Assembly (NCBI GenBank): GCA_028685755.1
Contig: JAQUDJ010000013.1
Span: forward strand, 12,673 to 56,566
Origin: Eubacteriales bacterium
GTDB taxonomy: Bacteria; Bacillota; Clostridia; Saccharofermentanales; UBA5734
DNA: 43,894 nt
Direction: 5' to 3'
In this document: positions 2,039-24,460 of the stretch, in pieces
How positions within the stretch are numbered: position 1 is the stretch's first letter
Layout of the letters: each line of letters opens with the position of its first letter
Translations under genes and position numbers: made by a program
Notes under the pieces: model-generated
Told to the model about the DNA's origin: nothing
The model's database searches: none
What the model saw: the letters and a program-made list of their open reading frames with translations, nothing else

Positions 2039-3241
2039 TTAAACAAATTCTGCAAAAGCTTGATTCGCAAGATCTAAGCCTAAATGGGTTAATCGCATAC
2101 CAGTCGAGTCAGATGCAATCAAGCCACGCTGAATTAATCGTGCAATTTCGTGGCTAAAAATCACTCGTGCATCGCCGTTAAATCGCTCGCTAAAGGTCGC
2201 CCATCGCACGCCATCGCTTAAACGCAATCCGAGTAAGATCATTTCTTTTTGGGCTTCACTTAGATCAATTGCTTCAGCGCTGATCGCAGCTGCAAAGGGA
2301 TCGCTAACTTGTTGTTGCGCGGGCTGTTGCGCTTGGTTTGTGCTCGCAAAGGCTGCTTCATAGTCGGCCCAATTTGCGGTATTGCCACGGCGCACGCCAG
2401 CGAGATAACTATGGGCAGCCACGCCAAATCCATAGTAGGGTTCCCCCTGCCAATAGACGAGGTTATGTCGACACGTTTGGCCAGATTTGGCCGCGTTGCT
2501 GATTTCGTAGGAGTCTAGTCCAGCCGCAGCGAGGCGAGCGCGAACAGCATGGTACATCGCTCGCTCGAGAGCTTCATCAGGCAAAAGTTCCGGGTGATCA
2601 TTATATTTCGCGTAAAAGGGCGTCCCCGGTTCAATGATCAGCGAATAGTAGGAGACGTGGTCAAGGCCTAAATCAACAACGAGGTCCACACTTTCTTCTA
2701 CATCCTGCATGGTTTGACCTGGCAAACCGAGCATTAAGTCGGCGCTGATTCGCGTGAAACCAGCACGACGCGCCGCATGGACCGATTCGATAAATTCAGC
2801 GCGCGTATGGATCCGGTCGAGATTGCTTAAGAGGTGGTCTTGAGCAGCTTGAAGGCCTAAGCTGATGCGATTGAAACCAGCTTGACGAAGGACTGTCAAA
2901 TCAGGTGCACGAACCGTACCCGGATTAGCTTCAAACGTGATTTCAGCGTCATCTGCTATGCCGATTTGGGCGCGGAGCGCTTCAAGTAACGTGATTAATT
3001 GCGCCGGGGTCGCTAACGATGGTGTGCCTCCACCAAAAAAGACAGTCGTCAAGGGCGCCATAAGGCCTTGTGCTTGACTCCACCTGCCGACGCGGCTGAT
3101 TTCCTCAAGAATCAGCTCAACATAGCGGTCTGGCTGACCGCCGGGCCACGAGACAAAATCACAATACGCGCATTTATGCTGGCAAAATGGCCAATGTAAA
3201 TACGCCGCACGAACCGGAGCAGTCAACGGATTAAACAACAA
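2039..3241 (-). CDS. hemW: Radical SAM heme chaperone HemW (HemN-like)
   Basis: This 400-residue radical SAM protein carries the cluster motif CQHKCAYC at residues 20-27 (CxxxCxxC) and the GGGTPS SAM-binding motif near residue 69. The HNLVYW motif near 258 separates HemW from true coproporphyrinogen oxidase HemN. HemW is thought to deliver heme to target proteins, and its gene often lies just upstream of hrcA, as here. The only upstream in-frame initiator before the conserved YLHWPFC block is a TTG. It lies directly beside the stop of the preceding lipoprotein gene and has no strong ribosome binding site, so translation may depend on coupling. Confidence 0.93.
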   Translation of the reverse strand: MLFNPLTAPVRAAYLHWPFCQHKCAYCDFVSWPGGQPDRYVELILEEISRVGRWSQAQGLMAPLTTVFFGGGTPSLATPAQLITLLEALRAQIGIADDAEITFEANPGTVRAPDLTVLRQAGFNRISLGLQAAQDHLLSNLDRIHTRAEFIESVHAARRAGFTRISADLMLGLPGQTMQDVEESVDLVVDLGLDHVSYYSLIIEPGTPFYAKYNDHPELLPDEALERAMYHAVRARLAAAGLDSYEISNAAKSGQTCRHNLVYWQGEPYYGFGVAAHSYLAGVRRGNTANWADYEAAFASTNQAQQPAQQQVSDPFAAAISAEAIDLSEAQKEMILLGLRLSDGVRWATFSERFNGDARVIFSHEIARLIQRGLIASDSTGMRLTHLGLDLANQAFAEFV

Positions 3242-17492: not shown

Positions 17493-17555
17493 TTGTAATA
17501 GATGCCCGGCACCAGTGGTGCTAGGTTCCTTTTACACCTACTACGGAGAAAAGCA

Positions 17556-18752
17556 ATGCTTGATTTTGACTATTTTAGTCCAACGCGACTCATTCTCGGC
17601 AAAGGCAAAGAGCTGCAGGTCGCTGAACAAATTTTGCAATGTGGCGCCACAAAAGTCTTGATTCATTACGGATCGGGCTCGGTGGTTCGCAGTGGTTTAC
17701 TGACTCGCGTCAAAGCAACCCTTCAGCAGGCTGGGATCGCTTTTGTTGAACTCGGCGGCGTGGTCGCCAATCCGCTCGACACCCTTGTCTATCGTGGGAT
17801 TCAGCTCTGCAAAGACGAAAACGTCGACTTTGTCCTCGGGGTCGGGGGCGGTAGCGTCATCGATTCAGCCAAGGCGATCGCGATCGGCGCCTGTGATGAT
17901 GGTGATTTTTTCGATTTTTACCTCGCCAAACGCAAGCCCTTGCGCCGCTTAGGTCTTGGGACGATTATCACCCTGATGGCAACGGGCACGGAAGCGTCAA
18001 ATAGCAGTGTTATCAAACGCGAACATGAACCGCTCAAACGTGGTCTGCGCTCGGATCTTAATCGCCCAGATTTTTCAATTATCAATCCTGAGCTGACTTT
18101 CACCCTGCCGTTACCGCTCGTCGCGGCTGGTTCAGCCGATATGATGGCTCACATCATGGAACGCTATTTTACGCAAACCACAGCAGTCAGTCTGACTGAC
18201 GAACTCTGCGAAGGTGCGTTGCGTTCAATCATCTATGAAACTCCGACTGCACTCGCTAACCCAAACCATTATGACGCACGGGCTAACTTGTTCTTTGCCT
18301 CCACCGTTGCGCACGTCGGTTTGCTCGGCATGGGACGGCAGGAAGACTGGAGCATGCACGCTATCGAGGCGGAATTGGGCGGCGCCTATAACACGACACA
18401 CGGTGCCGGCCTCGCTGCGATCTATCCGGCTTGGCTCCTGCATATTTTACCGCATCAAACCATGCGAATTGCTCGTTTTGCTGATAAGGTACTCGGCATT
18501 CCACTTGATTTCACAGCACCGGAACGCTCAGCCCGCTTAGGTATACAAGCCTTGTCACGACTTTTTGTCAGCTGGGGCTTGCCACAGAATTTGCAGGCTA
18601 TGAACGTGCCTTTTGAAGACCTGCCAACGTTAACAAAACGCACCAAACGCAACCCTGACGGCACGTGTGGTTGGTTCCTACCGCTGCGTGACGCCGATAT
18701 TTTGGCGATTTACGAAAAAGCATGGGACTTTGATCCCTCATTCGACCGCTAG
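17556..18752 (+). CDS. Iron-containing alcohol dehydrogenase (YqhD/BdhA type)
   Basis: The ATG at 17556 with GGAG upstream gives a 398-residue protein; a longer in-frame extension has no ribosome site. It belongs to family III Fe-ADHs and likely reduces aldehydes with NAD(P)H in the cytosol. The cofactor loop is GVGGGSVIDSAKAIA. Fe ligands can be read in GSADMMAH (Asp, His), a His in SMHAIE and a His in NTTHGAGLA. The BdhA/YqhD-type MATGTEASNSSVI block is present. Its stop overlaps the end of galM by 15 bases (tail to tail). Substrate is not visible; butanol dehydrogenase-like activity is the best guess. Confidence 0.9.
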   Translation: MLDFDYFSPTRLILGKGKELQVAEQILQCGATKVLIHYGSGSVVRSGLLTRVKATLQQAGIAFVELGGVVANPLDTLVYRGIQLCKDENVDFVLGVGGGSVIDSAKAIAIGACDDGDFFDFYLAKRKPLRRLGLGTIITLMATGTEASNSSVIKREHEPLKRGLRSDLNRPDFSIINPELTFTLPLPLVAAGSADMMAHIMERYFTQTTAVSLTDELCEGALRSIIYETPTALANPNHYDARANLFFASTVAHVGLLGMGRQEDWSMHAIEAELGGAYNTTHGAGLAAIYPAWLLHILPHQTMRIARFADKVLGIPLDFTAPERSARLGIQALSRLFVSWGLPQNLQAMNVPFEDLPTLTKRTKRNPDGTCGWFLPLRDADILAIYEKAWDFDPSFDR

Positions 18753-19850
18753 GCGATAGATCGTCGTTTCGCGAAACACGTCGCCGGCTTGATAGATTGC
18801 GTTCGGGAAGTTCGTATGATTGACTGCGTCGGGAAAATGTTGGGTTTCGAGACAGTATGAGCCCCGCGTCAGATATGTTGCGCCGCCTTTACCGATATCG
18901 CCGGGTTTCATATTGTTAGCTGTGTAGAACTGGACACCTGGGGATGTCGTTTCCACCGTCATCTTGCGGCCAGATACCGGCTCATAAACGACAGCACAGC
19001 GTTTGAGTGTACGAGCTGGTGCCGTTGGATTGGCCCCGGAAACTATGCGGGGTTCTTCGCCACGCAACACGTAATTGAAGTCATAGCCTTTGGCAAAATG
19101 CATCTGCTCTTCGTCCGCATCAATTGCGAACCCAATCGGACGAGGGGTGCGGAAATCGAGTGCAGTGCCTTCAACTGGGCGAATTTCACCGGTTGGATAA
19201 CAATTGGCGTCGATCACGGTAAAAGCATCTGCCTCGATTTGCACAATATGCCCGTTGATGTCGGAGCGCTCATGGCCAGCTAAATTGAAGTACACGTGGT
19301 TGGTCAGATTGATTGCGGTCGCCTGGTCTGCAACCGCCTCGTAGTCAAGGCGCAGGGCGTTATCTTGCGTTAACGTATAGGTCAGGCTGACCTGCAAATT
19401 ACCTGGATAGCCTTCTTCCCCATCCGCGGAAAAAAGGCTAAAACGTACACAAGGATCTTCACCGAGGTCCTCGCCGTCACGGATGATTTCGGCAGTCCAA
19501 ATGCGCTTATCAAAACTGATAAACCCGCCATGCATGTGATGAGGGTCTTTGTTTTTTGAGAGTTCGATGATTTGGCCATTTAGATTAAATCGGCCATTCC
19601 TGACACGATTGGCAACTCGCCCGATCGTTGCCCCGTGGCGTGGATTGGTCGGACCAAGGTAGCCGTTTATGTCTTTATAGCCTAAGACAATATCTTTCAA
19701 TTGGCCAAAACGATCTGGGACTTCAAAGGATTGGATCGCGGCACCAAAGGTGATTAAGCCGACTTGGCAGCCATTGGCATTGCGCAAGCGATAGCGTTCA
19801 ATCGATTGTCCGTCAGGCATCTCACCAAATGCAAATTTCATCACAGACAT
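18738..19850 (-). CDS. galM: Aldose 1-epimerase (mutarotase)
   Basis: A 370-residue protein is predicted from the ATG at 19848-19850, with AAGGAGG upstream; a longer in-frame extension overlaps the previous gene and is unlikely. The galactose mutarotase fold interconverts alpha and beta hexoses. Signatures are NPRHGATIGRVANRV, the HMHGG block, the NLTNHVYFNLAGH block with a catalytic His, the AKGYDFNYVL region and the final Glu in SYCLETQHFPDAVN. The start overlaps the end of the preceding toroid-like gene by 10 bases, so it is in the same operon. A link between galM and the thiol/iron-sulfur genes is unexplained. Confidence 0.94.
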   Translation of the reverse strand: MSVMKFAFGEMPDGQSIERYRLRNANGCQVGLITFGAAIQSFEVPDRFGQLKDIVLGYKDINGYLGPTNPRHGATIGRVANRVRNGRFNLNGQIIELSKNKDPHHMHGGFISFDKRIWTAEIIRDGEDLGEDPCVRFSLFSADGEEGYPGNLQVSLTYTLTQDNALRLDYEAVADQATAINLTNHVYFNLAGHERSDINGHIVQIEADAFTVIDANCYPTGEIRPVEGTALDFRTPRPIGFAIDADEEQMHFAKGYDFNYVLRGEEPRIVSGANPTAPARTLKRCAVVYEPVSGRKMTVETTSPGVQFYTANNMKPGDIGKGGATYLTRGSYCLETQHFPDAVNHTNFPNAIYQAGDVFRETTIYRLAVE

Positions 19851-20839
19851 GTTGAGAGTCCTCCTTGAGTTTGTTGAATGCGTTTTTTGATTCGTTCGAT
19901 GCAAAAAGTTAGCCAGGGCGAGTGTTGCTTTTTTTGGCCAAAATCCCAGGCGCCCCAAGCTTGCCAGACAGATTCCGGTGTATACCAGCCGTCCGCATCA
20001 GCCTTACCCGTCATAATCGCCAACATGTCCTGGAGGCGAGGATCGGTCCTAGCGATCGGAAACTGGGAAAGAACATCCACGACATGGACAATATCGTACC
20101 AAATGAACGGCGCCTTGAGTTTACGAAAGTCTGTACCCATGAAAAACATATAGGGATGCTGGTTCTGGCTCTCGGCCCAAAGCCTGAGCAGGGTCTCGAC
20201 GCCGGCATGTGCCGCTGGACTAATTCGACCTGCTGGTGTGAGTGCTAAAAGTTTGAGCATGATCAAAGACGCATAGGGGCAAGGGTCAGCTTTTTTGCCA
20301 GGTCCGCGAAATCCACCTAATTCAGGTGATACAACACAGGGCCACCCATTGTCACGGACCATAGCAGCAAGGGTCTCGACCGCGCGAATGGCTAACTGAC
20401 GATCCCGGACAAGATTCATTTTCAAAGCTGAATAAAGTAACAACGGGGCGTCACAGAGCGCCCATGCATAGTCGAGCTGGCCACTTCCGCCATGAGCTTG
20501 TGAAATCAGCATGGGTAAGCGAAAAATCCCGTCCAGTGACTGCGAACGTTCGAGTGCAGCGCTCAGGATAGAGAAATCGGCATCCTCGCGCGTCAGCCCG
20601 AGATCGGCTAGGAAGGCAAGCTTGTGGTATTGTTGACCTGCACTTTTGTGACTGTTGAGCACAGTGCCTGGCCAGTCCTGCATTTCATCGATTAGTCCTG
20701 TGACCAGTGGATGAGCCAGCAAGTTTTGCCGGATTGTCTGAACCGCAGGGCTAGTTAACTCATAGCCAGCAAGATCTTGTAACGCACGAAAAGCGACCCA
20801 TGGTTCTGCGGCATTAAGCAAATGAGTGACGATCGACAT
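19841..20839 (-). CDS. Alpha-alpha-barrel-like protein of unknown function
   Basis: The ATG at 20837-20839 has GGGAGGAGGT upstream and gives a 332-residue protein. It is probably soluble, all-alpha, with repeated two-helix units (for example AVETLAAMVRDNGWPCVVSPE and YASLIMLKLLALTP), as in prenyltransferase/squalene oxidase-like or glycosyl-type toroids. No catalytic motif was recognised. It lies between a polyferredoxin (about 50 bp upstream) and galM (overlap of 10 bp) in a minus-strand run, so co-transcription is likely. Function unknown; the call rests on a fold impression only. Confidence 0.72.
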   Translation of the reverse strand: MSIVTHLLNAAEPWVAFRALQDLAGYELTSPAVQTIRQNLLAHPLVTGLIDEMQDWPGTVLNSHKSAGQQYHKLAFLADLGLTREDADFSILSAALERSQSLDGIFRLPMLISQAHGGSGQLDYAWALCDAPLLLYSALKMNLVRDRQLAIRAVETLAAMVRDNGWPCVVSPELGGFRGPGKKADPCPYASLIMLKLLALTPAGRISPAAHAGVETLLRLWAESQNQHPYMFFMGTDFRKLKAPFIWYDIVHVVDVLSQFPIARTDPRLQDMLAIMTGKADADGWYTPESVWQAWGAWDFGQKKQHSPWLTFCIERIKKRIQQTQGGLSTCL

Positions 20840-20888
20840 CCGAGTACCTCCTCCCGGTTTAGGGTGGCCGGCTATAAGCGGATCAAGA

Positions 20889-21857
20889 TTAGTCGAGGCT
20901 GTTAGCAATCCCCTCAGTCGTTTGCGGTGATTTGAACGGTGTTTGGAATGGTTGAAAACCAACTTTCAAGGAATTTGTCGGGCAAACCGCAGCACATTCA
21001 CCACATCGAATACATTCAGCGACGTTTGCGTGATGTGGAACAGCAACGGCCATAGGACATTGCTTGGTACAACGATTGCAACTGATACATGTTGACGGTT
21101 CAAAATGCACCCGGTAGGCGCTGACTTTGTTAAAAAAACCATAAATGGCGCCGAGTGGACACACGTAACGACAAAATGGACGGGGCGTCACTGTGGCTAA
21201 TGCCAAGAAGATGACGAGCAAAAGCCCTTTCCAGCCAAAAAGCCAGCCAGCTAAAGCGCGAAGTTGATCGTTAACCGACACCAGCGGAATGCCAGCAAAA
21301 AGTGTGCCGGATGGACAAATATATTTGCAAAAATAGGGGTCGCCAAACTGGCCAGTAAGCGTTGGAATAAAAGGTAAAAGAATAACGAATAAGGCCAAAA
21401 TGACATATTTGAGTTGCTTTAATGCGGTATGCAGCGCAGGAAGTTGTTTCTCGAGATAATACTTTGGCGTTTGGATTTTGTACAGCAGCTCTTGGACCCA
21501 CCCGAATGGACAAAGCCAGCCACAAACTGCCCGACCAGCAAGCGCGCCAGTCATGGTTAGAAAACCTATAACATAAAAGGAAATTTTTTGGCGCGGATCA
21601 GCTAATGCATTCTGCAACGCCCCAAGTGGACACGAACCTAAAGCTCCCGGGCAAGAGTAACAGTTCAGACCAGGCACACATGCGTTTTTGAGTGGGCCTT
21701 GATAAATCGTCCCCTTGAAAAATCCTGCCAAATAGCCATTCGTACCCAGTAAATACAACCCTTGAAACCATTTGCGCCGCTTCTGTTGCGCGGAAAGTGG
21801 CGAAAGGTGCCTAGCACGTGCCTGGCGCTTGCCAGGTGATTTTTTATCCGCAGTCAT
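20889..21857 (-). CDS. Membrane polyferredoxin of the NapH/CcoG type
   Basis: A 322-residue protein is predicted from the ATG that shares its A with the stop of the upstream micro-gene (TGATG, 21855-21859), so the two are translationally coupled. Membrane helices alternate with Cys motifs CVPGLNCYSCPGALGSCP, CGWLCPFGW, CKYICPSG and CRYVCPLGA, as in NapH/RdxA-like proteins. Two 4Fe-4S ferredoxin motifs lie near the C terminus: CISCNRCTKQCP and CIRCGECAAVCP. It should pass electrons at the membrane. Partners upstream are a CXXC micro-protein and a membrane thioredoxin. The electron donor and acceptor are unknown. Confidence 0.9.
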   Translation of the reverse strand: MTADKKSPGKRQARARHLSPLSAQQKRRKWFQGLYLLGTNGYLAGFFKGTIYQGPLKNACVPGLNCYSCPGALGSCPLGALQNALADPRQKISFYVIGFLTMTGALAGRAVCGWLCPFGWVQELLYKIQTPKYYLEKQLPALHTALKQLKYVILALFVILLPFIPTLTGQFGDPYFCKYICPSGTLFAGIPLVSVNDQLRALAGWLFGWKGLLLVIFLALATVTPRPFCRYVCPLGAIYGFFNKVSAYRVHFEPSTCISCNRCTKQCPMAVAVPHHANVAECIRCGECAAVCPTNSLKVGFQPFQTPFKSPQTTEGIANSLD

Positions 21858-21994
21858 CAGCCGATACCAATACAACCCAGACAAAGCTGGGTTGCACGTC
21901 GCCAAAGCGCAAGCATATCACCGCGGGCAATTCCGCCCACGAGCAAGACAAGGCCTAAGCCGAAAATCAAAAGGCGCGTCGTTTTAACAGTCAT
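21857..21994 (-). CDS. CD1871A-type CXXC micro-protein (45 aa)
   Basis: This small ORF was read directly from the sequence. It encodes one hydrophobic helix (RLLIFGLGLVLLVGGIARGD) followed by LWRRATQLCLGCIGIG, ending in a CLGC motif five residues from the C terminus. It matches the clostridial CD1871A-type CXXC family in size and layout. The ATG (21992-21994) has GGAGG upstream and the stop overlaps the polyferredoxin start (TGATG). Its neighbours are a membrane thioredoxin and a polyferredoxin, so a thiol/disulfide or electron relay at the membrane is inferred. Confidence 0.85.
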   Translation of the reverse strand: MTVKTTRLLIFGLGLVLLVGGIARGDMLALWRRATQLCLGCIGIG

Positions 21995-22013
21995 AGCGAG
22001 CCTCCATGGGTTG

Positions 22014-22045
22014 GGTTGGTGACTGGCACGTGCCAGTCACCAACC
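22014..22045. repeat. Perfect 32-bp palindrome between trx and the CXXC gene
   Basis: GGTTGGTGACTGGCAC is followed immediately by its exact reverse complement. It begins right after the trx stop codon. No T-run follows, so it is not a classical terminator; a REP-like or RNA-stabilising role is possible. A related, imperfect GCACGTGCC-bearing hairpin lies in the polyferredoxin gene near 21815-21840. Confidence 0.9.
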
Positions 22046-22540
22046 TTACATAACGCTGTCGAGCATGTCACTTAAAGATTGTTCGACGCCGTCTCCAAAG
22101 CCGGTCAGGGAGTTAACAACGGCGCTGTCCTGGACGATGACGAAATTGGGGATACCGGTAACACCGAAGGCTTGGGCGATTTCGCCGGCGAGGTCGGTGT
22201 TGATTTTAACGACGTGGGCTTTGCCGGCATAGGTTTCGGCTAATTTTTCGATGGTTGGGGCAGCGGCGCGACAGGGTCCGCACCATTCGGCCCAGAAATC
22301 AATGAGGATCGGTTCTTTGGTGGCGGCCATATAGGCAGTGAAATCTTCGATCACGACGTGATCATTGGTTGTCCCATTCCAGACGAGTTCATAAACTGCG
22401 TCCGTACTCGTTGCGTCAGCTGCAGGTTTTGCTGTACCTGGAAAAATCAGTGGGACAAGGACGACGGCGAGGATTGCCAGAACGGCTAAACTCACTACAG
22501 CATAGACACCAATTTTAATTTTGCTTTGATAATCAACCAT
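22046..22540 (-). CDS. Membrane-anchored thioredoxin-like protein
   Basis: This 164-residue protein has an N-terminal membrane anchor (about residues 11-35, VYAVVSLAVLAILAVVLVPL), a short linker and a thioredoxin domain. The active site WCGPC lies at 86-90 in LIDFWAEWCGPCRAAAP, and the cis-proline block is GVTGIPNFVIV. The anchor suggests the domain faces the outside. It heads the minus-strand run of CXXC micro-protein, polyferredoxin, toroid-like protein and galM. Likely role: disulfide or electron exchange with the CXXC micro-protein. Confidence 0.9.
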   Translation of the reverse strand: MVDYQSKIKIGVYAVVSLAVLAILAVVLVPLIFPGTAKPAADATSTDAVYELVWNGTTNDHVVIEDFTAYMAATKEPILIDFWAEWCGPCRAAAPTIEKLAETYAGKAHVVKINTDLAGEIAQAFGVTGIPNFVIVQDSAVVNSLTGFGDGVEQSLSDMLDSVM

Positions 22541-22657: not shown

Positions 22658-24460
22658 TTATTTGTACTGGCGCTTGATTTTTTTAGTCGTTGTTTTTTCG
22701 AATTCACTGGTCCGCAAGTCAAATTCGCGGATGTATTTATAAGTGACGGTCCCATGATTCACGTCGCGAATAATCCGGTCAATGGCTGCGCGGACAGCGT
22801 CCGAATTCAAGGCGACATCCCCGATGGATGCTTTGACTTTTTCTTCATTCGGGAAAATATCGACACGCACAACGGACTCTCCATCTGCATCAATGCGAGC
22901 GGATACGAGGCACTCAGCGATGAGCTCGTGCTGCATCAATTTGAATTCGATTTCTTCTGGGAAAATATTTTTGCCATTTTTAGCGATAATGACATTTTTT
23001 TTGCGCCCAGTAATGATCACGAAGCCATCTTTGTCAACGAATCCCAAATCACCTGTATGGAAAAAGCCGTTATCATCGATCGCTTCCTTGGTCGCTTCTT
23101 CGTTTTCGTAATAACCCATCATCACGTTCGGACCCTTGCCGATAATTTCGCCGATCCCATTCTCATCAGCATCGACGATTTTGATTTCTACACCCGGTAA
23201 AGCCAAGCCCGCTGCGCGGTCTTTGTAGTCGACATCACGATTGAGCGCGAGAATCGGGGCACATTCAGTTAGCCCATAGCCTTGGACGGTTTCGATGCCA
23301 AGATCTCGCATGCCTGATAAAATCGCCGGATCAATCGCGGCACCCCCAGCGATCAGCATCCGCAAGGATCCACCAAATGTACTGTGGACTTTTGCAAACA
23401 GCGAGCGTCGTTTGTCGACACCAACCTTGCGCAGTAGCCCGGAAATTTTTAAGCCTAAGCGGAATTTTTTAGCCAGTTTAGGGTCGGATGTGGCTGATTT
23501 GATGATGCGTTTGTAAAATAATTCCAACATCAGCGGTACGACAAGCATCATCGTGACCTTAGACTCCTGCATGTTGCGCGTAATGTGACGTAAGCCTTCA
23601 CAGACCGCTACCGTGGCGCCACGATAAACGGGGCAGAGGAAGCCGCACGTACTTTCATAGGTGTGATGGAGTGGCAGAACGGACAAGAAAACGTCCGACG
23701 GATCGACGTATAGCATCTGACACATGGCTTGTAAATTGATGCAAAGGTTGCGTTGGTTGAGCATGACGGCTTTAGACATTGCCGTGGTTCCGGACGTGAA
23801 AAGCAGCAGTGAGAGGGCTTCGGTGTCGATCGGGGCCTGGAGAAATGCTGTTTCTCCAGCTGCTAAGGCCAGATGGCCCTGCGCTAAACAATCCCAGAAA
23901 TATTGATCACCCTCAACTTTGGGTTGATCCATGCTAATAAACACTTTAACATTCGGAATCTGACTGCGGATCGCATCGACTTCTTTTTGTTTGGAATTCG
24001 CAAAAATCAAAACATCGGCATGCGAACGATTCAGCAAGTTCGCGATTTCACCTTCAGGCAATTCTTTGTCAAGTGGCACAGAAATGCCCGTGCCATTGAG
24101 GGTCGCGAGATAACTGACGTACCACTCATAGCGACTTTCGCCGAGGATCGCAATCCGGGTGTTTTGCAAACCATTAGTGAAAAAATACGTACCGAGGGCA
24201 TCAACATCTTTCGCATATTGTTGATAAGACACCGCCAAATAAGGGCTTGATTTTGCATCAGAATCTGCAGGGGGAGTGACCTGAATCGCCGCAATTATTG
24301 ACTCGGGCGTAGCCTGGACATGGTCGGCGCGATTTTCAGTGAGTGCCCGGGGGTCTTTAACCATGAAGGCTGTTTTGGCACCATATAATGTGGCACTTTG
24401 GGCGAGCATGTCCCGGAGGTCTGCGATCGGCCGGACGTCATAAAGCGGGATGTTTTTCAT
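22658..24460 (-). CDS. AMP-forming long-chain acyl-CoA synthetase (AMP-binding family)
   Basis: This 600-residue protein activates carboxylic acids with ATP and CoA, or acts as an acyl-AMP ligase. The P-loop-like motif is LLLFTSGTTAMSKAVMLNQRN near 217; other signatures are VQGYGLTECAPILA, MMGYYENEEATKEAID, the FHTGDLGFVD motif and GRKKNVIIAKNGKNIFPEE. C-terminal Lys-containing KTTTKKIKRQYK is typical of this clostridial group. It is the second gene after an alpha/beta hydrolase with a four-base ATGA overlap. Lipid or wall-acyl metabolism is inferred. Confidence 0.92.
   Translation of the reverse strand: MKNIPLYDVRPIADLRDMLAQSATLYGAKTAFMVKDPRALTENRADHVQATPESIIAAIQVTPPADSDAKSSPYLAVSYQQYAKDVDALGTYFFTNGLQNTRIAILGESRYEWYVSYLATLNGTGISVPLDKELPEGEIANLLNRSHADVLIFANSKQKEVDAIRSQIPNVKVFISMDQPKVEGDQYFWDCLAQGHLALAAGETAFLQAPIDTEALSLLLFTSGTTAMSKAVMLNQRNLCINLQAMCQMLYVDPSDVFLSVLPLHHTYESTCGFLCPVYRGATVAVCEGLRHITRNMQESKVTMMLVVPLMLELFYKRIIKSATSDPKLAKKFRLGLKISGLLRKVGVDKRRSLFAKVHSTFGGSLRMLIAGGAAIDPAILSGMRDLGIETVQGYGLTECAPILALNRDVDYKDRAAGLALPGVEIKIVDADENGIGEIIGKGPNVMMGYYENEEATKEAIDDNGFFHTGDLGFVDKDGFVIITGRKKNVIIAKNGKNIFPEEIEFKLMQHELIAECLVSARIDADGESVVRVDIFPNEEKVKASIGDVALNSDAVRAAIDRIIRDVNHGTVTYKYIREFDLRTSEFEKTTTKKIKRQYK

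Follow-up and report, generated by a model that had tools for sequence, protein, structure and literature searches.

The window analysed here is a stretch of 43,894 nucleotides (nt) from a Eubacteriales bacterium (assembly GCA_028685755.1, contig JAQUDJ010000013.1, positions 12,673 to 56,566), and all coordinates given below count from its first letter unless another locus or contig is named. On its minus strand three neighbouring genes encode an exported, membrane-anchored thioredoxin (Trx) of 164 amino acids (22046–22540), a 45-residue protein of the CD1871A family (21857–21994) and a NapH-like membrane polyferredoxin of 322 amino acids (20889–21857). Together they probably form an iron-sulfur machine that passes electrons across the membrane to the thioredoxin outside. 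The module is real and conserved and is functionally unassigned in the literature searched; its mechanism is a proposal that is well supported by context. An earlier sequence-only reading of the interval 19841–22540, which stops where a galM gene starts, had seen in the three genes a membrane thiol/electron relay of unassigned purpose, followed by an unrecognised all-alpha protein and galM as riders. All these genes are indeed present, on the minus strand.

Going from the Trx gene via those of the 45-residue protein, the polyferredoxin and the all-alpha protein to galM, the gaps are 51, −1, 49 and −1 nt, a spacing that is compatible with an operon. The ATG of the polyferredoxin gene overlaps the stop codon of the small gene by one base (TGATG), as the earlier reading had pointed out, and a second TGATG joins the stop codon of the all-alpha protein gene to the ATG of galM. 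A GGAGG ribosome site precedes the small gene by about 7 nt.

The 45-residue protein has a basic N-terminus, one transmembrane (TM) helix and the C-terminal sequence CLGCIGIG, with the CXXC codons at 21872–21883. It had been described as a 45-residue protein with a terminal CLGC; the length is correct, the motif is not strictly terminal, since C38 and C41 are followed by four further residues. Against the profile NF040920 ("CD1871A family CXXC motif-containing protein") it scores 32.7 bits, marginally above the curated cut-off of 32, with residues 9–45 aligned to positions 2–38 of 38; in a six-frame search the score was 31.4 bits. By its score over the cut-off, and also by the CXXC-[I]-G motif that stands C-terminally after one TM helix in a fixed neighbourhood, it is a member of CD1871A, a family that carries a name without an assigned function and of which no mention was found in the literature searched. 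NF040920 matches were obtained in 13 of 23 genomes of the same bacterial family, there with the gene at the same place, and in 54 of 398 genomes of the phylum. That the open reading frame is a chance one is ruled out by the profile score, the conservation at the same place within the family, the spread in the phylum and the invariance of the motif.

For comparison 141 loci from Clostridia, Spirochaetes, Synergistetes and Desulfobacterota were read, 61 of them found with the family model (the window included) and 80 with a DNA pattern of the C-terminal motif. Motif counts lean on the 61 family-model loci because the pattern loci were selected for the motif. Among those listed, the pattern matches come from Lachnospiraceae, Oscillospiraceae, Treponema and other Spirochaetes, Synergistaceae, Desulfocapsa, Syntrophomonas, Geosporobacter and others. 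All 141 sequences have an invariant C..C-[IMV]-G close to their C-terminus, and in 61 of 61 family-model loci about four residues separate the CXXC from the end. The small gene is thus conserved over several phyla, a point on which the sequence-only reading had let its case depend, and the search which that reading had suggested, for CD1871A-type proteins with fixed neighbours, found the neighbours fixed across phyla. A net positive end before the TM helix is present in 122 of the 141 homologues, which by charge corresponds to N-in/C-out; therefore the CXXC should face the outside, as the thioredoxin does.

The polyferredoxin subfamily lies near the 45-residue protein in 138 of the 141 loci. 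Two of the other three (L138 and L172) stop at contig edges, and there is one clear exception, L129, which has the 45-residue protein and a Trx on a contig that continues, with a radical-SAM-like frame instead of the polyferredoxin. In 70 genomes scored as negative for the 45-residue protein, a true member of the polyferredoxin subfamily was found in two only (279 bits; all others at most 107), and in both of them a 45-residue protein missed by the hidden Markov model adjoins it (ending ILCLSCIGVQ and ILCLSCIGIE). The pairing of the two proteins is obligate. Other neighbours vary across the loci, and no constant substrate gene was found among the contiguous neighbours scanned. A variant clade (L077, L079, L080, L083, L095, L097, L101, L238 and L239) has 45-residue proteins ending in CLSCIG[IV][QE] or similar; NF040920 scores it low and misses some members (L238, L239).

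The polyferredoxin contains the domains PF12801 (Fer4_5), PF00037 and PF12838. It does not belong to the NapH families proper, scoring 73.9 bits against a cut-off of 213 for TIGR02163 (NapH/MauN) and 64.5 against 234 for NF007013 (NapH). In 127 aligned homologues 18 cysteines are common (numbered from M1 of the window protein): 60, 66, 69 and 76; 112 and 116; 177 and 181; 229 and 233; and eight in the C-terminal 2[4Fe-4S] ferredoxin domain (20982–21089), where all eight are invariant and domain matches were obtained. Hydrophobicity and charge predict that the six cysteines at 60–76 and 177/181 lie outside and that 112/116, 229/233 and the ferredoxin domain lie inside, the latter in the cytosol. 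The predicted outer-face motif C60-x5-C66-x2-C69-x6-C76-P (21630–21680) is a candidate [4Fe-4S] site facing the 45-residue protein; C66, C69 and C76 are invariant, and C60 is conserved in 89% by alignment column, with a shift of one residue in the rest. The predicted outer-face CX3CP with C177/C181 (21315–21329) is a candidate exchange partner of the CXXC in the 45-residue protein. Here C181 is invariant and C177 is conserved in 94%, being replaced by serine only in the CLSCIG[IV][QE] clade, in all seven members that were aligned (L238 and L239 excluded). The AlphaFold2 model of the polyferredoxin is confident, with a pLDDT of 89.6 and a pTM of 0.84; a search of the PDB with the membrane part gave no match at E ≤ 0.001, the solved relatives being ferredoxin-like parts only. 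For the "4Fe-4S binding protein" CD17960 of C. difficile (PMC13260099), membership in the module could not be established.

The window's Trx has the active site WAEWCGPC, with C87 and C90 in the WCGPC motif (codons 22271–22282), and one hydrophobic segment at the N-terminus, as read from the sequence. It is a thioredoxin by PF00085 (82.7 bits, cut-off 23.5) and stays under the cut-off of TIGR01068 (89.3 versus 96.8 bits). A gene for a Trx or ResA-like protein is found near that of the 45-residue protein in 119 of the 141 loci, either before or after it, and a crude test detects a hydrophobic or lipoprotein signal at the N-terminus of 111 of 118 such partners, most of the seven failures being due to mis-chosen motifs.

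In 19 loci (L047, L054, L055, L056, L058, L060, L061, L063–L066, L068, L069, L071, L073, L075, L100, L110 and L144) an in-frame TGA stands exactly at the first catalytic Cys of the partner (UxxC; e.g., FSPGUGAC and WGTGUPSC), and these partners are likely unannotated or truncated selenoproteins in those genomes. They resemble ResA, StoA and DsbE. Such reductant proteins rely elsewhere on CcdA/DsbD. Downstream of most of the TGA codons lies a hairpin resembling a selenocysteine insertion sequence (SECIS), GTGCTGCAGTTGCAGCC or the variant CCTGCGTTGCAGG, which is not convincing for L047, L054 and L055 and was not found in the Cys-type homologues inspected. The Rfam SECIS models gave no match in the four loci searched. 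Because folds of single sequences of this region have weak z-scores, the evidence for the hairpin rests on its conservation across genomes. SelB scores over the cut-off in 17 of 17 UxxC genomes searched versus 17 of 49 other carriers (Fisher p = 1e-6), and in L075 a gene for tRNA-Sec (2330–2420, minus strand) lies about 5.6 kb from the module's U-type thioredoxin. The U-type partners in these other loci thus combine what characterises a bacterial selenoprotein, namely TGA at the catalytic Cys, SECIS and SelB. In the genome of the window the SelB matches are under the cut-off, which fits its Cys-type Trx. Thioredoxin-like selenoproteins with UxxC form a class already known (PMC13188914), and the passages found in that paper draw no link from them to a polyferredoxin or to CD1871A.

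How the three proteins could work together is proposed as follows. Electrons would enter the NapH-like protein at its cytosolic 2[4Fe-4S] domain, probably from ferredoxin, and would cross the membrane via Cys-ligated centres at the inner CX3CP motifs and the outer CxxxxxCxxCxxxxxxCP cluster. The outward terminal CXXC of the 45-residue protein would then be reduced, perhaps via the outer C177/C181 pair, and would in turn reduce the exported thioredoxin or ResA-like partner (CxxC, or UxxC in some species), from which extracytoplasmic substrates would receive the electrons. In this scheme the direction of flow, ferredoxin as donor, the ligation of the clusters, the order of the thiol relay and the substrates are what we infer. 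A membrane ferredoxin:thioredoxin reductase is proposed because the exported thioredoxins are mostly without a known recharger, quinol is not a general donor and ferredoxin is the simplest one. Ferredoxin-dependent reduction of thioredoxin is known from the clostridial cytosol (PMC10880999). We consider it rather likely that the module serves anaerobes as a thiol-reducing pathway across the membrane and works like such a reductase. The relay of the earlier reading is thus borne out in part, by the neighbours fixed across phyla, the exported Trx partners and the obligate pairing, and the purpose, on which it had been silent, can be stated more closely: on the evidence, reduction of extracytoplasmic thioredoxin/ResA/StoA-type proteins is favoured.

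The absence of a known recharger shows in the genomes. PF02683 (CcdA/DsbD_TM) was found in 20 of 66 carriers of the module versus 50 of 70 non-carriers (p = 3e-6), two of the latter having later proved to be carriers; this contrast ignores kinship and is not visible in the few families that contain both carriers and non-carriers (f32, f39, f57), and it therefore supports, without proving, that the module replaces CcdA/DsbD. When PF13386 (DsbD_2) is included, 23 of the 66 carriers have one or the other domain and most, 43 of 66, have neither. No protein of the window contains a DsbD_TM domain (PF02683/PF13386) and none belongs to CcdA/DsbD.

Besides the limits of this contrast, several points weigh against a ferredoxin-driven thiol pathway. 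The window's own genome encodes a protein of the DsbD_2 type (171 bits) and one resembling MenA that narrowly misses the cut-off (99 versus 102 bits). The CLSCIG[IV][QE] clade has lost C177, and six of its seven aligned cases are without a Trx nearby. Those NapH proteins that have been characterised take electrons from menaquinol (PMC3475470, PMC5928378), and for NosR the iron content speaks against clusters at the CX3CP motifs (PMC5928378). The DsbD_2-type protein, of about 460 amino acids (G000:C37:22277-22861), is a possible second transmembrane redox route.

The alternative that survives best differs only in the last steps: the cysteines of the 45-residue protein would be ligands of an iron-sulfur cluster between the subunits, shared with C177/C181 or the outer CxxC set, rather than a thiol-exchange pair, and the cluster would hand electrons to the Trx or another acceptor. 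When the other polyferredoxin cysteines are grouped in fours (four outer, four inner and eight in the ferredoxin domain), C177/C181 are left over; a cluster at this pair would need two further ligands, and two cysteines are exactly what the 45-residue protein always supplies. This grouping is itself inferred, however; the variant clade has Ser at position 177 and yet keeps the CXXC, and for an exported CxxC/UxxC neighbour a thiol is the more natural partner, so that we regard such a cluster as unlikely, though worth serious thought.

Less likely again is that menaquinol, as proposed for NapGH, is the donor and the module a quinol:thioredoxin reductase. The homology to NapH, which is described as a menaquinol dehydrogenase (PMC3475470, PMC5928378), speaks for it, as do the MenA-like gene of the window's own genome and the MenA or MqnA/D matches in 30 of 66 carriers (MenA at E < 1e-5 in 16, MqnA/D in 17). 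The other 36 have neither, however, so that quinol does not qualify as the general donor; the simplest candidate is ferredoxin. Moreover, with a potential of about −75 mV menaquinol is poorly suited to reduce thioredoxins, which lie at about −270 mV.

Improbable, in our view, is a reversed flow, in which electrons from exported protein thiols would reach cytosolic ferredoxin or another sink in a DsbA/DsbB-like formation of disulfides. The same parts list would do, and anaerobes require an electron sink that is free of oxygen, but the partners are WCGPC thioredoxins, relatives of ResA/StoA/DsbE or UxxC selenoproteins, which are known as reductants, and ferredoxins are far too reducing to take up such electrons. 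Finally, that the genes are merely co-inherited neighbours without common function is strongly disfavoured: galM, the AMP ligase and the alpha protein do accompany the module only inside the bacterial family, but the 45-residue protein and the polyferredoxin stay together over several phyla, with the Trx before or after and other neighbours varying.

The genes that flank the module look like local neighbours. The galM-type aldose 1-epimerase (18738 to about 19841, minus strand; PF01263, 273.5 bits; PRK11055, 266 bits, over the cut-off) is encoded after the polyferredoxin in two genera of the bacterial family, g1 and g3, and other genes stand there elsewhere; this family-only adjacency rules it out as a functional part. 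The all-alpha protein (332 amino acids, 19841–20839, minus strand) has no Pfam or NCBIfam match, in agreement with its having been called unrecognised. Its AlphaFold2 model (pTM 0.90) predicts an alpha/alpha toroid, a fold like those of terpene cyclases and glycoside hydrolases, and Foldseek gave a weak match to squalene-hopene cyclase (E 5e-4). It has several paralogues in the bacterial family. It, too, is ruled out as a functional part, since it occurs without the module (G002, G011) and in other contexts and is absent beside most modules. As parts of the relay the two riders therefore have to be dropped. Upstream, an acyl-CoA-ligase-like gene (22658–24460) precedes the Trx gene, and at the other end a convergent Fe-alcohol dehydrogenase gene (17502–18752) ends at galM.

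Between the genes for Trx and the 45-residue protein lies a 32-bp perfect palindrome, GGTTGGTGACTGGCAC/GTGCCAGTCACCAACC (22014–22045), a possible RNA hairpin that occurs at only three places in the genome when up to three mismatches are allowed. Imperfect relatives lie at two other sites of the genome (C18:8606 and C14:5125); near 21809–21838, at the start of the polyferredoxin gene, there is a related CACGTGCC stem. The palindrome may be an unrelated palindromic element.

In many anaerobes thioredoxin/ResA/TlpA-like reductants are exported although the CcdA/DsbD proteins known to recharge them are missing; the module would supply a route. If this is true, extracytoplasmic thiol chemistry is tied to ferredoxin metabolism, a widespread orphan family of small proteins gains a function, and the outer face of a NapH-type protein is a thiol-reducing site. 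We put forward only tentatively that the module is an undescribed, Fe-S-wired transmembrane ferredoxin:thioredoxin reductase whose 45-residue subunit bears the only exposed redox CXXC, and that it provides a CcdA/DsbD-independent route for exported thioredoxins and selenothioredoxins across anaerobic phyla.

Like CcdA/DsbD, the module would provide exported proteins with a thioredoxin fold (ResA/StoA/DsbE type) with reducing power from the cytosol. The two are not homologous: CcdA/DsbD uses an intramembrane Cys pair and a cytosolic thioredoxin, the module an Fe-S membrane protein and the 45-residue protein. With NapH, NosR and PceC, including the flavinylated NapH-like clusters (PMC8238504), it has in common the Fer4_5 membrane module, the CX3CP motifs and, as in NapH, the C-terminal 2[4Fe-4S] domain. 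Published descriptions give NapH and PceC proteins no more than two CX3CP motifs (PMC3475470, PMC5928378), whereas the module adds a third and the outer CxxxxxCxxCxxxxxxCP motif and has as partner a thioredoxin rather than a respiratory oxidoreductase. No nap genes were found among the commonest families of contiguous neighbours scanned, and no FMN-binding domain (FMN_bind) in the proteins of the window or among the 25 commonest of these families; the profile cut-offs and the absence of FMN_bind rule out NapH proper and a flavinylated NapH-like system (PMC8238504).

The small CXC protein DUF4266 of DsbD/flavinylation clusters (PMC8238504) resembles the 45-residue protein in its size, its C-terminal Cys motif and its place in an extracytosolic redox cluster, but it is secreted and accompanied by DsbD and DUF3570, whereas the 45-residue protein has a CXXC, is TM-anchored and is accompanied by the polyferredoxin. 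The proposed reaction, transfer of electrons from ferredoxin to a thioredoxin disulfide, is that of ferredoxin:thioredoxin reductase (FTR), for which Pfam/NCBIfam scans of the window proteins gave no sequence match, and of the clostridial ferredoxin-dependent flavin TrxB (FFTR, PMC10880999). These enzymes are soluble, cytosolic and unrelated in sequence, whereas the module is a membrane system that would serve an exported thioredoxin.

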